Source: Candidatus Roseilinea sp.
GTDB lineage: Bacteria; Chloroflexota; Anaerolineae; J036; Brachytrichaceae
Assembly: GCA_025055235.1 (NCBI GenBank)
Contig: JANWYN010000004.1
Span: 1 to 64,000, forward strand
Length of the DNA stretch: 64,000 nucleotides
Reading direction: 5' to 3'
The translations under genes and the position numbers were made by a program. The notes below the pieces were generated by a model that was not told where the DNA came from, did no database searches, and worked only from the letters and a program-made list of their open reading frames with translations. Below are positions 57,883 through 64,000 of this stretch, in pieces (position 1 is the stretch's first letter; each line of letters starts with the position of its first letter).

Positions 57883-58293
57883 TCATGTGGGCAGCTTGGG
57901 TTGTAGAACGGCGAAGAGATACGCCCCAACGAGCGCGCCGGCGAAGGTAGCCAACGCCAGCCAGGTGCCGGCGCCGATTTGCGCGTAGATCGGCCCGGGG
58001 CACGCGCCGGTGATGGCCCAGCCCAGCCCGAAGATGATGCCGCCGATGACGACGCCTTTTTGCCACTTCTTCTCTTTGATCGTGATCGGCTCACCTTGGA
58101 TCGTCTTCAAGTTGAAACGCTTGATCAGGAAGACGCTGATCGCGCCGACCAGCACGGCCGAAGCGATGATCAAATACATGTGCGCTTCCTCGAAGCGGAA
58201 CATCTTCTGGATACGGAACCACGAAATTACCTCGGACTTGGTCAGCACGATGCCGAACATTACCCCGATGAGCAAGACGAAGAGACGTTGCAT
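57883..58293 (-). CDS. YeeE/YedE family half-transporter B
   Basis: 136 aa membrane protein with about four helices, start MQRLFVLLIGVMFGIVLTKSE. The cysteine motif GACPGP (C98) is the sulfur-relay site of YeeE/TsuA-type thiosulfate channels. With the other half-gene 18 bases upstream it likely forms a split transporter for thiosulfate or sulfane sulfur. Followed by the hairpin at 57798. Confidence 0.82.
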   Translation of the reverse strand: MQRLFVLLIGVMFGIVLTKSEVISWFRIQKMFRFEEAHMYLIIASAVLVGAISVFLIKRFNLKTIQGEPITIKEKKWQKGVVIGGIIFGLGWAITGACPGPIYAQIGAGTWLALATFAGALVGAYLFAVLQPKLPT

Positions 58294-58311
58294 GGTTCGA
58301 CCTCCTTCAGC

Positions 58312-58794
58312 TCAACGTGCGAACAGTGCGCCGCCCCACGTCATGGCCAGCCCGCCGATGAAGAAGCTGATGCTCGCGATCAGGCTCGGCAAGCGCAGGT
58401 TGGATAGGCCCATGATCGTGTGGCCGGAAGTGCAGCCATCGGCGTAGCGCGTGCCGAAGCCGACCAGGATGCCGCCGATGAACAGCTTGACCACACCTTC
58501 GAGCGAGGCGAATTCCGGCGGCAGCAACTGCGGTGGCCGCGCCGATAGGAAGTTGGCGGCGATGAAACCGCCCAGCAGCACGCCGGCGACGAAGATGAGA
58601 TTCCACGACTCCTTTCGCACATCGTTGTTCTTCAGGTACGGCAATTGGGATTTCGGGAAAGCGAGCGAACACCAATGGCGGAAGGAGCTGGAAATGCCGA
58701 GCGTCTTGCCGGTGAGAATCAGCAACAACGGCACGCTCAGCCCGATCAAAGGCCCCGCGATATACCAGGGCCACGTCTCGAAAAGCCAATCCAT
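58312..58794 (-). CDS. YeeE/YedE family half-transporter A
   Basis: 160 aa, about five hydrophobic helices. The start MDWLFETWPW at 58794 was chosen because the longer frame (to 58899) lacks membrane character and AGGAGA lies just upstream. The YeeE cysteine motif appears as ADGCTSGHTIMG (C121), with C42 in a second conserved-like position. The pair reproduces the two halves of single-chain YeeE, whose cysteines pass sulfur along the pore (TsuA from Spirochaeta is the characterised member). Confidence 0.82.
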   Translation of the reverse strand: MDWLFETWPWYIAGPLIGLSVPLLLILTGKTLGISSSFRHWCSLAFPKSQLPYLKNNDVRKESWNLIFVAGVLLGGFIAANFLSARPPQLLPPEFASLEGVVKLFIGGILVGFGTRYADGCTSGHTIMGLSNLRLPSLIASISFFIGGLAMTWGGALFAR

Positions 58795-59021
58795 CGCAAT
58801 CTCCTCTCGTAAGCAGTTGAATTTACGCCGCGGTTCGGGCACGACGAAAGGATGCATTCGCCAGCGGGGGCTGTAGGGCGCGCTCTGAATGGCCCGCATG
58901 GGCTACCGTAGTGCGCCGTTGGCGGCGCACACGGGTATGTCCGCGAATGCACCCCGACGAAACGCGGCGTTTTAAGATATTTAGAGTCCGGCTACGGCAA
59001 AAGGTTACACAGTTACGGGCG
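58795..59021. other. Intergenic gap between sigma factor and YeeE genes
   Basis: 227 bases with no gene. It contains the hairpin GTGCGCC / GGCGCAC (58911-58930) and an inverted GCATTCGC / GCGAATGC pair (58854-58861, 58952-58959). These could end the sigma transcript or belong to another small repeat family. Confidence 0.4.
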
Positions 59022-59639
59022 CTACTGGTAATACTCCTTCAGCTTCTCGGCCAGCTTCTCGCGCAGTTTGGCGCGCGCGCGGTGCAGGCGCACCTTCACG
59101 GCCGATGGGCTGATACGTAACTGTTCGGAGGTCTCGAGGACGGAGAGGCCGTCCAGATCACGCATCACCAGCACCCGGCGCAGCGTCTCCGGGAGCGAAG
59201 CGATGGTCTCGTTGATATGGGCATGAAACTCCTGGTTTTCGATGAGTTCGTCCAGCGCCGTGTAGTCCGCCGGCTCGCCCGCTGCACTGATGCCCTCGAT
59301 CCCGTTCGGTTGGCTGTGTTCATTCAGGTCGGCCTCGGTGATTTCGCCCCGCCGTTTCCTGTAGCGTAACCGCTCCAGCGACGCATTGTGAGCGATGCGA
59401 TATAACCATGTCCCCAGAGAGGCGTTGCCCTCGAAGTGCTGAATGGCGCGGAAGGCGCGGAAATAGGTCTCCTGTACGACATCCTCAGCTTCACACCGGT
59501 CGCGGAGGATCTCGTAGGCATGCCGGTAGAGCCTGCGCCCGTGCATTCGCATGCACTCGGCGCAGGCTGTCATATCACCCGCTTTTAGCCGGGCGACGAG
59601 TTGTCGCTCATCATCCGGCGCATCAACCAAATCCGCCAA
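59022..59639 (-). CDS. ECF-type RNA polymerase sigma factor with N-terminal CxxC
   Basis: 205 aa. Region 2 spans ~30-95 (YRHAYEILRDRCEAEDVVQETYFRAFRAI) and region 4 ~140-195 (LPETLRRVLVMRDLDGLSVLETSEQLRISPSAVKVRLHRAR). Just before region 2 stand C26-x2-C29 and H33, with C49 in the following helix, cysteines not usual at these places. No anti-sigma gene is adjacent. The start is TTG 59639; no ATG or GTG gives a full region 2. It sits between the two halves of the sulfur gene set, so a role in their control is likely by context. Confidence 0.88.
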   Translation of the reverse strand: MADLVDAPDDERQLVARLKAGDMTACAECMRMHGRRLYRHAYEILRDRCEAEDVVQETYFRAFRAIQHFEGNASLGTWLYRIAHNASLERLRYRKRRGEITEADLNEHSQPNGIEGISAAGEPADYTALDELIENQEFHAHINETIASLPETLRRVLVMRDLDGLSVLETSEQLRISPSAVKVRLHRARAKLREKLAEKLKEYYQ

Positions 59640-59651
59640 TATCGCGGGTTA

Positions 59652-59680
59652 ACCGTAGCGACCTCGCAGGATCATTTCAA
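59652..59680 (-). promoter_or_regulatory. Putative promoter of the sigma-factor gene
   Basis: On the minus strand TTGAAA (59680-59675), 17-base spacer, TACGGT (59657-59652). The predicted start lies about six bases before the TTG, so the message would be nearly leaderless. Confidence 0.45.
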
Positions 59681-59743
59681 GCGCGATTTGGTAATGGCTC
59701 GTTAAGCCAACGCTAATGCCTTCGGCCTGTCGTACAGCTCACG

Positions 59744-59866
59744 TGGGTGTATTTCCCGCTGAGGGCAAATTGCCCGCGACTTCAGTCGCGGGCAATTTGC
59801 GGCAAAGCCGGCTATGCGCCGGCTTTGCCATGCGTTGCGCGCAGATTCATCCGCTGCGCAAATCTA
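59744..59866. repeat. Dispersed multi-hairpin repeat, family 2 (copy at 59.8 kb)
   Basis: Three hairpins in a row: GCAAATTGCCCGCGAC / GTCGCGGGCAATTTGC (16 bp perfect, loop TTCA, 59765-59800), GGCAAAGCCGGC / GCCGGCTTTGCC (12 bp, 59801-59829) and GCGCAG / CTGCGC (~59840-59860). It matches 46991-47092 in order. Lies between the MBL-rhodanese stop and the sigma-factor promoter. Confidence 0.75.
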
Positions 59867-59880
59867 CATTACACCCCGCT

Positions 59881-61341
59881 TCATGACGCAGCAGGAACGA
59901 CGGTCGGATAGCGCTTGGTGTAGTCGCTCATGCCCTCGGGCGCGATGTTCAGTAGGTCGGAGAAGCCATGGCGCACCAGCAGGCTGCACACCGCGCTTGC
60001 GCGCGTGCCGCTCTCACAGGTGACGACGATCTTTCGGTCGCGCGGCAGCGCATCTATGTAGTTGCGGATGTTGCCCAGCGAGATGAGACGGACATCCGTC
60101 TTGCCATTCGGGATGACGCCGTTGGCCCACTCGAACGGCTCACGCACGTCTAGGATCACTGCGTCGGCCGCTTGTGCGTGAGCGTGTAGGTCTTCCAGCG
60201 ATCCGACCGGCAAAGTCGCCGTGGGCAGCCCGGCCGCAGCCCAGGCTTGAACCGGCTCGCGGACGTAGCCCAGCACCGGATTGCGCTGCACAGATGCCTG
60301 CGATGACCACAATGCTGCGGCGGTCGCGGCGACGACAGGGACATCGCTGATGAAGATCAGCGGCTCGCCGGGCGCCGTGACGGCCGAGACGCGGTTGATC
60401 AGCTTGTCTTTGTGGTAGGTGACGTTGATGGCGCCGCGTGGATGGCCGGCGGCGAAGTCCATCTGTTTGCGTAGATCAATCAGCACGGCGCCGGTTTGCG
60501 TGGCTTCGTAGGCTTGCTGGATGGTCAGGGCCGGCGCACGCACGGCCGAGGCGACGCCCTGTTCGGTCAATGCTTCCGGCAAAGGTAGCGCGCCGCGGTT
60601 GGTGTTGCGATGCCGCAGCACCGCTTCGACGACGCGGCGAGGCGTCTCGCCCGCCAGGCGGGCGAACTCCTCTTTGGTGCGCGCCTGCAGCATCCAATTG
60701 AAGCGGCGCTCGAAGCCGATGGTGCTGGAGGTTTTGCCGCTCATGTTCTTGCCGCCGCACGCCGAGCCGCCGTAGTGGGCGGGGAAGATCTCGCAATCGT
60801 CCGGCAAGGCCAGCAACTTCTGCACGCTTTCGAACATCACATCGTTTCCGGTCATCGGCAAGTTCACCAGGTCGGTGCGGCCGACGTCGTTGACGAACAG
60901 GCAGTCGCCGGTGAGCACCATCCAGGGTCGCTCGGCGCGCGGGTTGTCGCTGATGGCATATGACATGTGCTCCGGCGTGTGGCCCGGCGTGTGAATCGCC
61001 GTGAGCGTGATGTTGCCGACTTGAATCTTGTCGCCGTCGTTGACGCGCACGTGGTCGAACAGCACCGTGGCGCTGGTCGCCTCGCCCTGAATGTCATCGC
61101 GGCTGGGCGCATAGATCGTCGCTCCGGTCAACGCTGCGATGGCGCGCCCGGTGGAGAAGTAATCGGCGTGAAAGTGGGTCTCGATGACCTTCGTGATCTT
61201 CAACCCCTTATCGGCCGCTGCCAGGATGTAGTCCTCGGCCGGAAGACTGGGATCCACGACTGCGGCTTCTCCCGTGGCCACGCAGCCGATGAGATAGGAC
61301 GCCGCAGAGAGCGGCTCATTGAGGAATTGTCGAAAAATCAT
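59881..61341 (-). CDS. MBL-fold hydrolase with two rhodanese domains (persulfide dioxygenase-like)
   Basis: 486 aa. The metallo-beta-lactamase domain (1-~235) has H56, H58, D60 and Y61 in THFHADYF, H121 in TPGHTPEH, D146 in LTGDCLF and H189 in PAHYGG, an ETHE1-like set. The first rhodanese domain (~265-375) has Ser/Asp (332-333) where the cysteine should be and is probably inactive. The second (~385-480) has the active cysteine C442 in VTCESGTRAS. Such fusions oxidise persulfide and handle the sulfite or sulfane product. Adjacent to the double-rhodanese gene (46 bases). Confidence 0.88.
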   Translation of the reverse strand: MIFRQFLNEPLSAASYLIGCVATGEAAVVDPSLPAEDYILAAADKGLKITKVIETHFHADYFSTGRAIAALTGATIYAPSRDDIQGEATSATVLFDHVRVNDGDKIQVGNITLTAIHTPGHTPEHMSYAISDNPRAERPWMVLTGDCLFVNDVGRTDLVNLPMTGNDVMFESVQKLLALPDDCEIFPAHYGGSACGGKNMSGKTSSTIGFERRFNWMLQARTKEEFARLAGETPRRVVEAVLRHRNTNRGALPLPEALTEQGVASAVRAPALTIQQAYEATQTGAVLIDLRKQMDFAAGHPRGAINVTYHKDKLINRVSAVTAPGEPLIFISDVPVVAATAAALWSSQASVQRNPVLGYVREPVQAWAAAGLPTATLPVGSLEDLHAHAQAADAVILDVREPFEWANGVIPNGKTDVRLISLGNIRNYIDALPRDRKIVVTCESGTRASAVCSLLVRHGFSDLLNIAPEGMSDYTKRYPTVVPAAS

Positions 61342-61387
61342 CGTTTGACTCCTTGTGAAATCAGTCTTGAGTGCACAGTGACTTTTA

Positions 61388-62119
61388 TCAGTTTGAGTTT
61401 GCTGGTTTAGATGGCGTCGGCTGCGAAAGGTTACGCCCGGCCTCCACAGGCAGCCCGGCGCGAATCCAGCTTCGCGTGCCGCCGATCACCCGGTAGATCT
61501 CCTTGAAGCCCTGATCCAACAGTTGAAGCGCTGCGCGCCGGCAGCGCACACCGGCAGCGCAGATGAGGACGAGGGGACGTTGGGGATCAAGCATATGGAG
61601 GTGCGCTTCGAGCCGGTCGAGGGGAATCGAGAGCGCCCCCGGCACGTGGCCTGCGGCGTAAGCTTCGGGGTCGCTCACATCCACCACCACCGGCGGCGGG
61701 CTAACTTGCATCATCGCGTAGAGCTGGGCAGGCGAGATGGCCTGCGACTCCCCGTTCGCGACAGGGAAGCCGGCCGCACGCCACGCTGCGATGCCTCCCG
61801 CCATGCATCCCGCGACCTGATAGTGCTCTTTCAGCAGGCAATGCAACAGGGGCACCAGCGCGGCGTTCGGCTCGGAGACGATGACAACCGGCAGAGACCG
61901 CGGAATCAGTTTGCGGAACGCTACAGCGTGTCCCGTGCCTTGAAGGAAGATGCTGGCCGGGATGTTGAGCGAGGCCGGGATGTGCGCTTTTAGAAAGGCG
62001 GCGCGCTCGCGCGCATCAACCGGCACATGCCCGTCTAGAATGTGCTGCATGACCTGCGGCGGCGTGAGCGGATGCGTGCCCAGATACTCGATGCGCGCGA
62101 GGATTTTGCGGCTCATCAT
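61388..62119 (-). CDS. Double rhodanese-like sulfurtransferase
   Basis: 243 aa. The N-terminal rhodanese-like half (~20-120) has Ser82 at the catalytic position (VIVSEPN) and is probably inactive. The C-terminal half (~130-232) has C187 in LICAAGVRCRR with a second cysteine C193 and ends SWIRAGLPVE. It would carry sulfane sulfur between the transporter, the MBL protein and cellular acceptors. Tandem ATGs at 62119 and 62116 are both possible starts. The gene is divergent from the SulP permease, 144 bases apart. Confidence 0.87.
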   Translation of the reverse strand: MMSRKILARIEYLGTHPLTPPQVMQHILDGHVPVDARERAAFLKAHIPASLNIPASIFLQGTGHAVAFRKLIPRSLPVVIVSEPNAALVPLLHCLLKEHYQVAGCMAGGIAAWRAAGFPVANGESQAISPAQLYAMMQVSPPPVVVDVSDPEAYAAGHVPGALSIPLDRLEAHLHMLDPQRPLVLICAAGVRCRRAALQLLDQGFKEIYRVIGGTRSWIRAGLPVEAGRNLSQPTPSKPANSN

Positions 62120-62263
62120 GTTGCTTCGTTCTTATCTGGGTTAGATGACCGGATCACCCCTGAAGTTACTTGCGATGGGGCAGCGCCGGCGTTGAACGAA
62201 GTCACACCATAGGTTCGCAGCCGATGTAACCAGAGACTATGTTGAATCATCTGAGTAGAAGAA

Positions 62264-64000
62264 ATGAGCGTCGTCACACGAGTTGCTCCTGAGCGTGAGT
62301 CGGCGTCCTCCCGGCCTCCGAGGCGGATGCCCGATAAACCATCCTTCGTCCAGAGATACGTGCCCATCCTGCGCTGGCTGCCGGCCTACCGTCGTGCCGA
62401 TCTGCCACAGGATCTGATCGCCGGCGTGATCACCGCAATCATGCTCGTGCCGCAGAGCATGGCGTATGCGCAACTCGGCGGCCTTCCTCCCCAGGTCGGC
62501 CTGTATGCAACGATCCTGCCGATCGCCGCCTACGCCATACTGGGAACGTCGGGGCAACTCGCGGTAGGACCGGCTGCGATCACGTCGCTGGCCGTGTTGG
62601 CCGGTGTGGGCGCGCTCGCCGCGCCGGGCACGCCGCGTTATCTGGAGCTGGTGCTGGCGCTCACCCTCATGGTCGGCATCATCAAGGTGGCGTTGGGCAT
62701 CTTCCGGCTGGGCACAGTGCTGAACTTCGTCTCGGCGCCGGTGCTCTCCGGTTTCATGTCGGCTGCGGCGCTCGTGATCATCGCAAGCCAGCTCAAACAC
62801 CTATTGGGCTTCAACGTGGCGGGCAAGGCGGTGCATGACCAGCTGTACGACGCCGTCACACACATTAACAAGACGAATCCCGTCACGCTGGCGATTGCGC
62901 TGACGAGCATCCTGATCCTAGTGCTGTTCAAGAGCCGCGCAGTCAAAGCGTCCTTGGGGAAGCTGGGTGTGCCGCCGAGGCTGCGCACGCTGATCGGCAG
63001 CCTGTCGCTGCTCCTGGTGCTCGTGCTGGGCACGCTGGTGACGGCGACCTTCCGGCTCGATGTGGCCGCCGGCGTGAAGACGGTGGGAGTGATTCCTGCC
63101 GGCCTACCACCGCTGGCACTGCCCAATTTCTCCTTGACCGACGCCGGCTTGCTCGCGCCCACGGCGCTGACCATCGTCTTCATCAGCGTCGTGGAATCTA
63201 TCTCGATTGCCAAAGCGCTCGCCAGTAAGCATCGCCAGCGGATTGATCCAGATCAGGAGTTAATCGGTCTTGGGGCAGCCAATCTGATGGCCAGCTTCAG
63301 CGGCGCCTATCCGGTTGCCGGCGGACTGGCGCGCTCGGTGGTGAACAACGAAGCCGGCGCAATGACCGGCTTAGCGTCGCTGGTGACGGCCGCCATGATG
63401 GCCGCGACGCTGGTCTTTCTCACACCGCTGTTCTATTACTTGCCCCAAGCGGTGCTGGCCTCTATCGTGGTCGTGGCCGTGGCCGGGTTGTTCGACCTGC
63501 GCGAGGCGCGGCGACTGTATCACCTGCAGCGAAGCGACTTTTTGACCTGGCTGGCAACATTCGCCGTCACGCTGGTCTTCAACATCGAGGTCGGCATCCT
63601 CGCCGGCATGGTGCTGTCGCTGCTGCTCTTCCTGTGGCACACCAGCCGCCCGAAAGTGGTCGAGATCGGCCGCATCCCCGGCACCTACATCTTCAAGAAT
63701 GTGGCGCATCACGATACGCAGACCTCGGAGTCGGTGGTCGCGCTGCGCGTGGATGAAAGCTTGTATTTCGCCAATGCGCGCTATCTCGAAGACCGCGTGC
63801 TCGAAGTAGTTGCCGCGCGCCCTGCGGTCCGCCATATGGTGTTGCACTGTTCGGCCATCAACAGCGTAGACACGACCGCCATCGAAACGCTCCAGTCGCT
63901 GCACGACGAGTTGCGTGACGCGGGCGTGGAGTTACATCTCGCTTCGCTGAAGGAGTGGGTGCTATCGCGGCTGGAACGGGCCGGCTTCGTCGCCGCCATC
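62264..64000 (+). CDS. SulP family anion permease with STAS domain (cut by the window end)
   Basis: At least 579 codons; no stop before the window edge. The signature LIAGVITAIMLVPQSMAYAQ and GLPPQVGLYATILP open the transport domain, with GTSGQLAVGPAAITSL, PVAGGLARSVVNNEAGAMTG and about eleven helices. Residues ~465-579 form the STAS domain (LRVDESLYFANARYLEDRVL). Substrate is likely sulfate or another small anion; context favours a sulfur oxyanion. ATG 62264 with AGTAGAAGAA upstream; ATG 62327 is an alternative. Confidence 0.9.
   Translation, partial: MSVVTRVAPERESASSRPPRRMPDKPSFVQRYVPILRWLPAYRRADLPQDLIAGVITAIMLVPQSMAYAQLGGLPPQVGLYATILPIAAYAILGTSGQLAVGPAAITSLAVLAGVGALAAPGTPRYLELVLALTLMVGIIKVALGIFRLGTVLNFVSAPVLSGFMSAAALVIIASQLKHLLGFNVAGKAVHDQLYDAVTHINKTNPVTLAIALTSILILVLFKSRAVKASLGKLGVPPRLRTLIGSLSLLLVLVLGTLVTATFRLDVAAGVKTVGVIPAGLPPLALPNFSLTDAGLLAPTALTIVFISVVESISIAKALASKHRQRIDPDQELIGLGAANLMASFSGAYPVAGGLARSVVNNEAGAMTGLASLVTAAMMAATLVFLTPLFYYLPQAVLASIVVVAVAGLFDLREARRLYHLQRSDFLTWLATFAVTLVFNIEVGILAGMVLSLLLFLWHTSRPKVVEIGRIPGTYIFKNVAHHDTQTSESVVALRVDESLYFANARYLEDRVLEVVAARPAVRHMVLHCSAINSVDTTAIETLQSLHDELRDAGVELHLASLKEWVLSRLERAGFVAAI

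Follow-up and report, generated by a model that had tools for sequence, protein, structure and literature searches.

Known regulators of sulfur oxidation and the island described here

Control of sulfur oxidation by an extracytoplasmic function (ECF) sigma factor has been described for the ECF26 group, in which RpoE4/SigE acts with SorT/SorAB in Sinorhizobium meliloti and Starkeya novella (PMC3511301, PMC6527743). Here we describe another ECF sigma factor, which is encoded within an island of sulfur genes in a 64,000-base stretch of Candidatus Roseilinea DNA (the window; bases 1-64000 of the 75,623-base contig C94 in genome G000, which is 3.99 Mb in size and 92% complete). This island is probably, and with good confidence, a self-contained regulon, in which an ECF sigma factor of a Chloroflexota clade linked to thiol and sulfur responses is encoded in, and drives, a set of genes for cytoplasmic oxidation of sulfane sulfur and thiosulfate. 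The likeness to RpoE4, whose regulon is limited to its own operon and the sorT operon, lies in an ECF sigma factor that stands beside sulfur-oxidation genes and appears dedicated to them. However, RpoE4 has a cognate anti-sigma sensor and a periplasmic sulfite dehydrogenase, whereas no anti-sigma is recognisable here, the island encodes persulfide dioxygenase, rhodanese, YeeE and SulP proteins, and the sigma factor itself carries CxxCxxxH. The COG5662 anti-sigma and SorT-type sulfite oxidase that characterize the ECF26 sulfite regulon are both absent from the island.

A second related system is the thiol-stress pair SigR-RsrA (PMC4960319). Relatives of the window sigma factor resemble it in that they pair with a small zf-HC2 protein and flank thiol-redox genes. 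Unlike sigma factors controlled by a zinc-binding anti-sigma of the RsrA type, the window sigma factor has no adjacent or fused cognate zf-HC2 partner, and its relatives carry a Cys-Cys-His cluster, often with a further Cys pair in the linker. In the metal-sensing sigma factors CorE and CorE2 (ECF44/ECF238) and OrbS, the protein's own cysteines regulate it without a classical anti-sigma (PMC8999054, PMC9023288). Those cysteines are found in C-terminal tails, and in CorE also as a CxC in the linker, whereas the putative sensor described here sits in region 2, on the first of its long helices. The window sigma factor ends in KLKEYYQ and has neither a C-terminal anti-sigma domain nor a Cys-rich C-terminal extension.

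The cst operon of Staphylococcus aureus is controlled by the repressor CstR and not by an ECF sigma factor. Likewise, the bigR operon is under the control of the repressor BigR (PMC5823870) and not of an ECF sigma factor. The island shares with the bigR operon, the yedE1-yedE2-pdo (PmpAB) genes and the cst genes a split YeeE/YedE transporter beside a persulfide dioxygenase and a CstB-like protein of metallo-beta-lactamase (MBL), pseudo-rhodanese and rhodanese domains (PMC5823870, PMC10812762). Split pairs such as PmpAB/YedE1E2 usually occur in bacteria with persulfide dioxygenase genes (PMC10812762). In the open-access literature, we found no description of an orphan sigma factor that has Cys-Cys-His in region 2 and is restricted to an island for persulfide oxidation, and no paper on an ECF sigma factor with rhodanese neighbours and persulfide sensing. 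ECF-run sulfur oxidation and on-board sensor sigma factors are known, and what appears to be new is their variant combination at this locus.

A promoter set confined to the island

The initial annotation had proposed that the sigma factor turns on the island, and had pointed to the starts at 58794, 62119 and 62264 as places where a common -35/-10 might be found. An ECF-type promoter was found before all three, and also before the MBL-rhodanese gene (Table 1). The complete 3.99 Mb genome contains exactly four copies of the strict pattern GTAAC[CT]-N17/18-TCT[AG]A, one at each of the four putative transcription starts of the island; the reversed control of this pattern gave six matches genome-wide. 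A slightly looser form has four matches in the 64 kb, all of them in the island, against 0.32 expected. The sigma gene lies downstream of the promoter at 61407-61434, on the same strand. In G006, a genome of the same genus in a single contig, versions of the promoter precede the same four genes. Before SulP, both boxes are kept and the spacer is changed, and in both genomes the 5' end of the promoter lies 38 bases 5' of the ATG.

A matrix built solely from sites beside relatives in the genomes of other bacterial families (the foreign matrix) was also applied. Its top three sites in the window are 61434 (26.9 bits), 59008 (20.2) and 62169 (13.7), with 0.42 sites expected per 64 kb at 13 bits or more, and it recovers all four sites in G006. 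In relatives with about 45% identity, nearly identical promoters (GTAACCTTT-N11-GCATCTAA) stand before the genes for the sigma factor, OsmC, DUF302 or rhodanese. Because the promoter set is found only in the island and the foreign matrix finds three of its four members, the sigma factor very probably drives an island-confined regulon and so switches the island on. It is the sole close member of its clade in the genome, where the only other match to it has 34% identity.

The same promoter type extends beyond the Cys-Cys-His sigma factors. In three sister loci of the same family without CxxC (L020, L023 and L025), it lies downstream of the sigma gene, apparently before thioredoxin/glutaredoxin-type genes, which would form a thiol-redox regulon. 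Since some sisters without Cys-Cys-His have the promoter before other genes, it characterizes the wider group. Its use as a mark of the Cys-Cys-His feature was dropped for the same reason, after a loose -35/-10 search had found it in sister loci as well.

Two features of the intergenic DNA were observed. Between the 59008 promoter and the transporter start, about 110 extra bases (58853-58951) are bounded by inverted copies of GCGAATGCA; they are absent in G006 and would be a small insertion. Two strong inverted repeats lie at 59762-59835, between the MBL-rhodanese and sigma genes, and were not seen in the shorter gap of G006. These could limit read-through into the sigma gene.

The sigma factor and its clade

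The window sigma factor has Pfam region 2 at residues 31-97 and region 4 (r4_2) at 143-192, joined by a linker of fewer than 50 residues, as expected of an ECF sigma factor. Its AlphaFold model has a pLDDT of 87 and most closely matches the folds of ECF structures, with SigW (5wuq) as the best match in the PDB. The best NCBIfam match, PRK11922, scores 176 bits, below its cut-off of 204. Cysteines occur at positions 26, 29 and 49 only. The CxxC previously described at the N terminus is real as a Cys pair, and H33 extends it to CxxCxxxH. By contrast, C49, which had been put forward as a third sensor residue, was discarded, as it is Tyr in the G006 protein, the only orthologue, and is not conserved in the clade. 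The positions of C26, C29 and H33 are F, I and Y in SigW and mostly F, L and Y in sister sigma factors, which places them in the core of the helix predicted for residues 23-45.

Within the class, DNA encoding the pattern GD..AC..C...H....YR was found in 21 of 298 genomes (reversed control, 0). Across 84,980 species, the pattern was found in only 30 contigs, 29 of them titled Chloroflexota and one an Acidobacteria metagenome-assembled genome (MAG). The latter (L115) is a 4.6 kb contig with the sigma factor, a zf-HC2 gene and the group promoter, and represents either a binning error or a transfer. C26, C29 and H33 are invariant in 31 distinct sigma factors, practically all from Chloroflexota (Anaerolineae). 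As these were collected with a pattern that itself demands the three residues, a tree is the better measure of conservation. In a tree including 22 sister sigma factors, the distribution of Cys-Cys-His requires three changes, which can be interpreted as a single gain with two later losses, and the cluster is kept in 31 of the 34 sigma factors of the enclosing clade (moderate support, 83/88). The Cys pair, together with H33, marks a distinct sigma clade. A further Cys pair in the linker, DWCCLPE, is present in 23 of the 31 (e.g. L036, L043 and L079-L091) and absent from the sigma factors of the window, G006 and same-family sisters.

The neighbourhoods of these genes were also compared. Among 131 open reading frames (ORFs) next to 29 Cys-Cys-His sigma factors, the commonest Pfam families are zf-HC2 (18), DUF302 (9), OsmC (9), Rhodanese (6) and Zn_ribbon_8 (4). 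The 102 neighbours of the 22 sister sigma factors without the pattern include OsmC (7), thioredoxin/glutaredoxin (7) and zf-HC2 (6); the families listed for them do not include rhodanese. With local profiles, a rhodanese, DUF302 or FmdB-type gene was found within 1.5 kb at 13 of 29 Cys-Cys-His loci versus 1 of 22 sister loci; the Fisher p value of 0.0014 is only indicative, because the profiles were built from the Cys-Cys-His group and the loci share ancestry. The linkage to rhodanese-type genes recurs in distant families, and the idea that it is confined to the window was abandoned for the clade. Taken together, the wider group resembles a sigma/anti-sigma system for thiol redox, of which the Cys-Cys-His branch leans towards sulfane-sulfur genes.

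Genes and extent of the island

The gene layout read from the window holds. The six genes are present on the strands described, with the motifs GCTSGH, GACPGP, CESGT and CAAGV, their families match above the Pfam cut-offs, and no anti-sigma is encoded beside the sigma factor. The boundary needs amendment, as the island extends past the edge of the window to about contig base 72,665. Beyond the edge, the + strand encodes an ApbC/Mrp protein, a fused iron-sulfur (FeS)-NrfD protein, a molybdopterin oxidoreductase, a TorD/NarJ-like chaperone and a second SulP. The SulP gene of the window heads this + strand gene set, which reaches the oxidoreductase.

Table 1. Positions of the promoters, genes and Cys-Cys-His cluster within the window
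Feature	Position	Strand	Context or Pfam match
YeeE/YedE (TsuA-like) subunit, DUF6691, Cys98 in GACPGP	57883..58293	-	PF04143 + PF20398
YeeE/YedE (TsuA-like) subunit, Cys121 in GCTSGH	58312..58794	-	PF04143 (Sulf_transp)
ECF-type promoter GTAACCTTT-N11-GACTCTAA	58981..59008	-	before transporter genes
ECF sigma factor, 205 aa, TTG start	59022..59639	-	Sigma70_r2 + r4
C-x2-C-x3-H cluster, codons 26-33, CAECMRMH	59541..59564	-	in helix 23-45, region 2
MBL (persulfide dioxygenase type)-pseudo-rhodanese-rhodanese, 486 residues	59881..61341	-	Lactamase_B + Rhodanese
Double rhodanese	61388..62119	-	Rhodanese
ECF-type promoter GTAACCTTT-N11-CCATCTAA	61407..61434	-	before MBL-rhodanese, inside double-rhodanese 3' end
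ECF-type promoter GTAACT-N18-TCTAA	62141..62169	-	before double rhodanese
ECF-type promoter GTAACC-N18-TCTGA	62226..62254	+	before SulP
SulP/STAS anion transporter	62264..64000, on to contig base 64078	+	Sulfate_transp + STAS

G006 shows synteny over the block that runs from the transporter genes to the oxidoreductase, and its sigma factor is 82% identical. Because the whole block is syntenic there, the arrangement is more than chance. Seven other genomes of the genus have neither a sigma orthologue nor a close transporter orthologue; in one of them (G001), the transporter has a distant match with 36% identity.

The split of YeeE/YedE stands, with the order of the halves amended. The C-terminal half of TsuA (PDB 6leo residues 239-325) is matched by the product of the upstream gene (58312-58794), which is 94% identical in G006, and the N-terminal half (residues 6-117) by that of the downstream gene (57883-58293), which is 96% identical. 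Both Sulf_transp repeats and their conserved Cys are present, as in the TsuA/YeeE channel, across two half-size genes. As the score is well below the TsuA equivalog cut-off, the assignment of the transporter stops short of a substrate.

The MBL-rhodanese protein has the iron-ligand motifs THFHAD at 55, GHT at 120 and TGD at 144, a pseudo-rhodanese loop without Cys (SDVPV at 332) and a C-terminal rhodanese with Cys442 in CESGT. This is the CstB-type architecture, and the PDB matches are 3tp9 and 3r2u. In the double rhodanese, the active-site Cys187 (CAAGV) is in domain 2, and the loop of domain 1 has no Cys. A second cluster in G006 (L034:4393-6882) encodes a rhodanese, an MBL-rhodanese, a rhodanese lipoprotein and an FmdB-type zinc ribbon. 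Its MBL-rhodanese is 37% identical to that of the window, has a counterpart in G000 at C110:36785-38161, and belongs to a paralogue found in most genomes of the genus. The strict group promoter was not seen at this cluster.

The oxidoreductase outside the window is PhsA/PsrA-like by sequence, in the molybdopterin/PhsA-like family with an NrfD partner. No obvious twin-arginine translocation (Tat) signal was seen in its N-terminal sequence, which fits a cytoplasmic SoeABC-like sulfite dehydrogenase; the downstream molybdoenzyme operon is tentatively SoeABC/Phs-like. Further along the contig (L033:18337-19924, contig about 74036-75623), an array resembling clustered regularly interspaced short palindromic repeats (CRISPR) was observed, with at least 22 repeats of GCTTCAATGGGGCCACGCCTTTTCAGACGTGGAGAC at a period of 71-78, running off the contig end.

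Alternative explanations

A purely structural role of the cluster, which would bind zinc or simply supply small side chains to the region 2 core, is the alternative that survives best. The orphan sigma factor would then be controlled by its own level, with positive feedback from basal transcription, and not by sensing a ligand. We regard this as a serious possibility, still short of probable. The three residues do occupy core positions of the helix, the cluster is kept both with and without an anti-sigma, and its rate of retention equals that of other conserved columns. However, a joint change of three core residues to C, C and H on a single occasion, and their retention in 31 of 34 sigma factors, would be costly unless they bind something, and the clade's neighbours are sulfur or thiol genes.

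It is somewhat less likely that a hidden anti-sigma, encoded elsewhere or too diverged to be recognised, holds the sigma factor and does the sensing, as in SigR-RsrA and most relatives of the window sigma factor, with the cluster as a detail of partner binding or structure. By the local profile, a zf-HC2 match falls within 1.5 kb in 24 of the 29 loci with Cys-Cys-His and in 18 of the 22 sister loci. The small zf-HC2 protein of the clade has invariant C5, C25, H31, C35 and C38, of which C25 is an invariant Cys beyond the HxxxCxxC ligands. In addition, three sigma factors of the same bacterial family (L035, L039 and L041) have a degenerate zf-HC2 copy fused at the C terminus, and L038 has a weak in-frame match. 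Among fused copies, the His is lost in L035 and L039 at least, and HxxxCxxC is intact in L089. Profile searches found the clade family beside its own sigma factor in the same-genus genomes G002 and G005. G000 and G006 each encode four Pfam zf-HC2 proteins in frames of 253-316 residues, several of them beside other ECF genes; one of 257 aa, present in both genomes, has no adjoining ECF gene in the stretch examined and would be a candidate.

Against a hidden partner, the same profile search returned no member of the clade zf-HC2 family for G000 or for G006, which is a single contig (best E 0.62). The initial annotation had also considered an anti-sigma elsewhere with the same promoter, but the strict pattern occurs nowhere outside the island in G000, so a hidden anti-sigma gene would lack the customary co-regulation.

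That the promoters belong to another sigma factor, the encoded one having a different regulon and a coincidental linkage, is very improbable: they do resemble general ECF promoters (AAC in the -35; PMC8103513) and sisters without the cluster have similar sites, but the window sigma factor is the only close group member in the genome, the sites occur only around it, and the same sites flank relatives in other families.

Proposed mechanism and its weak points

In the self-contained regulon that we favour, the sigma factor would be made by read-through from the 61434 promoter via the MBL-rhodanese gene, resulting in self-amplification, and would fire the transporter, double-rhodanese and SulP promoters. 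The split YeeE pair may import thiosulfate or sulfane sulfur. The rhodaneses would then hand sulfane sulfur to the MBL-rhodanese, which would oxidise persulfide to sulfite, the downstream SoeABC/Phs-like molybdoenzyme would oxidise the sulfite, and SulP would handle sulfate. This order is suggested by the gene families. After loss of the anti-sigma, activity may depend in part on the buried C26-C29-H33 cluster, with zinc or thiols controlling how region 2 folds, and in part on autoregulation.

Control through the sigma factor's own cluster is the least certain part. We hold only tentatively, and consider rather doubtful, that the protein is a one-component sigma factor that reads persulfide, thiol or zinc state directly via the region 2 C-x2-C-x3-H.

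Several observations weigh against the proposal as a whole. Two of the four G006 sites deviate from the strict pattern, and the SulP site, whose -35 lacks TTT, scores below 11 with the foreign matrix. The group promoter was not found immediately upstream of the sigma gene, which is set apart from the MBL gene by 241 bases that include inverted repeats. The island-linked form of the sigma factor is known from two genomes only. The direction and substrate proposed for the molybdoenzyme reaction are tentative. Retention of C/C/H in the window and G006 sigma factors is unexceptional, given that 43 of the 55 clade-conserved columns are retained there; it was dropped as proof of function. Moreover, the view of the cluster as the sulfur switch is weakened: because most Cys-Cys-His relatives have a zf-HC2 protein and sisters use a similar promoter for thiol-redox genes, it is probably not simply that.

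Implications

The described responses to sulfane sulfur that we found are the repressors BigR and sHdrR/SoxR, and those to sulfite are ECF26 sigma/anti-sigma pairs. An orphan sigma factor with an exact promoter set in one complete sulfur-oxidation island would be a clean regulon in an uncultured Chloroflexota lineage, and the promoter predictions extend to the whole Cys-Cys-His clade. The clade would also provide a natural experiment, in which the zinc anti-sigma of a sigma factor first becomes fused, next degenerates and finally disappears. Should the Cys-Cys-His site act in sensing, it would be a new sensor position for sigma factors, and in the about 30 relatives, most of them paired with an anti-sigma, the cluster would be a second sensor. 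In the island itself, RNA polymerase would then sense the substrate of the very pathway that it turns on.

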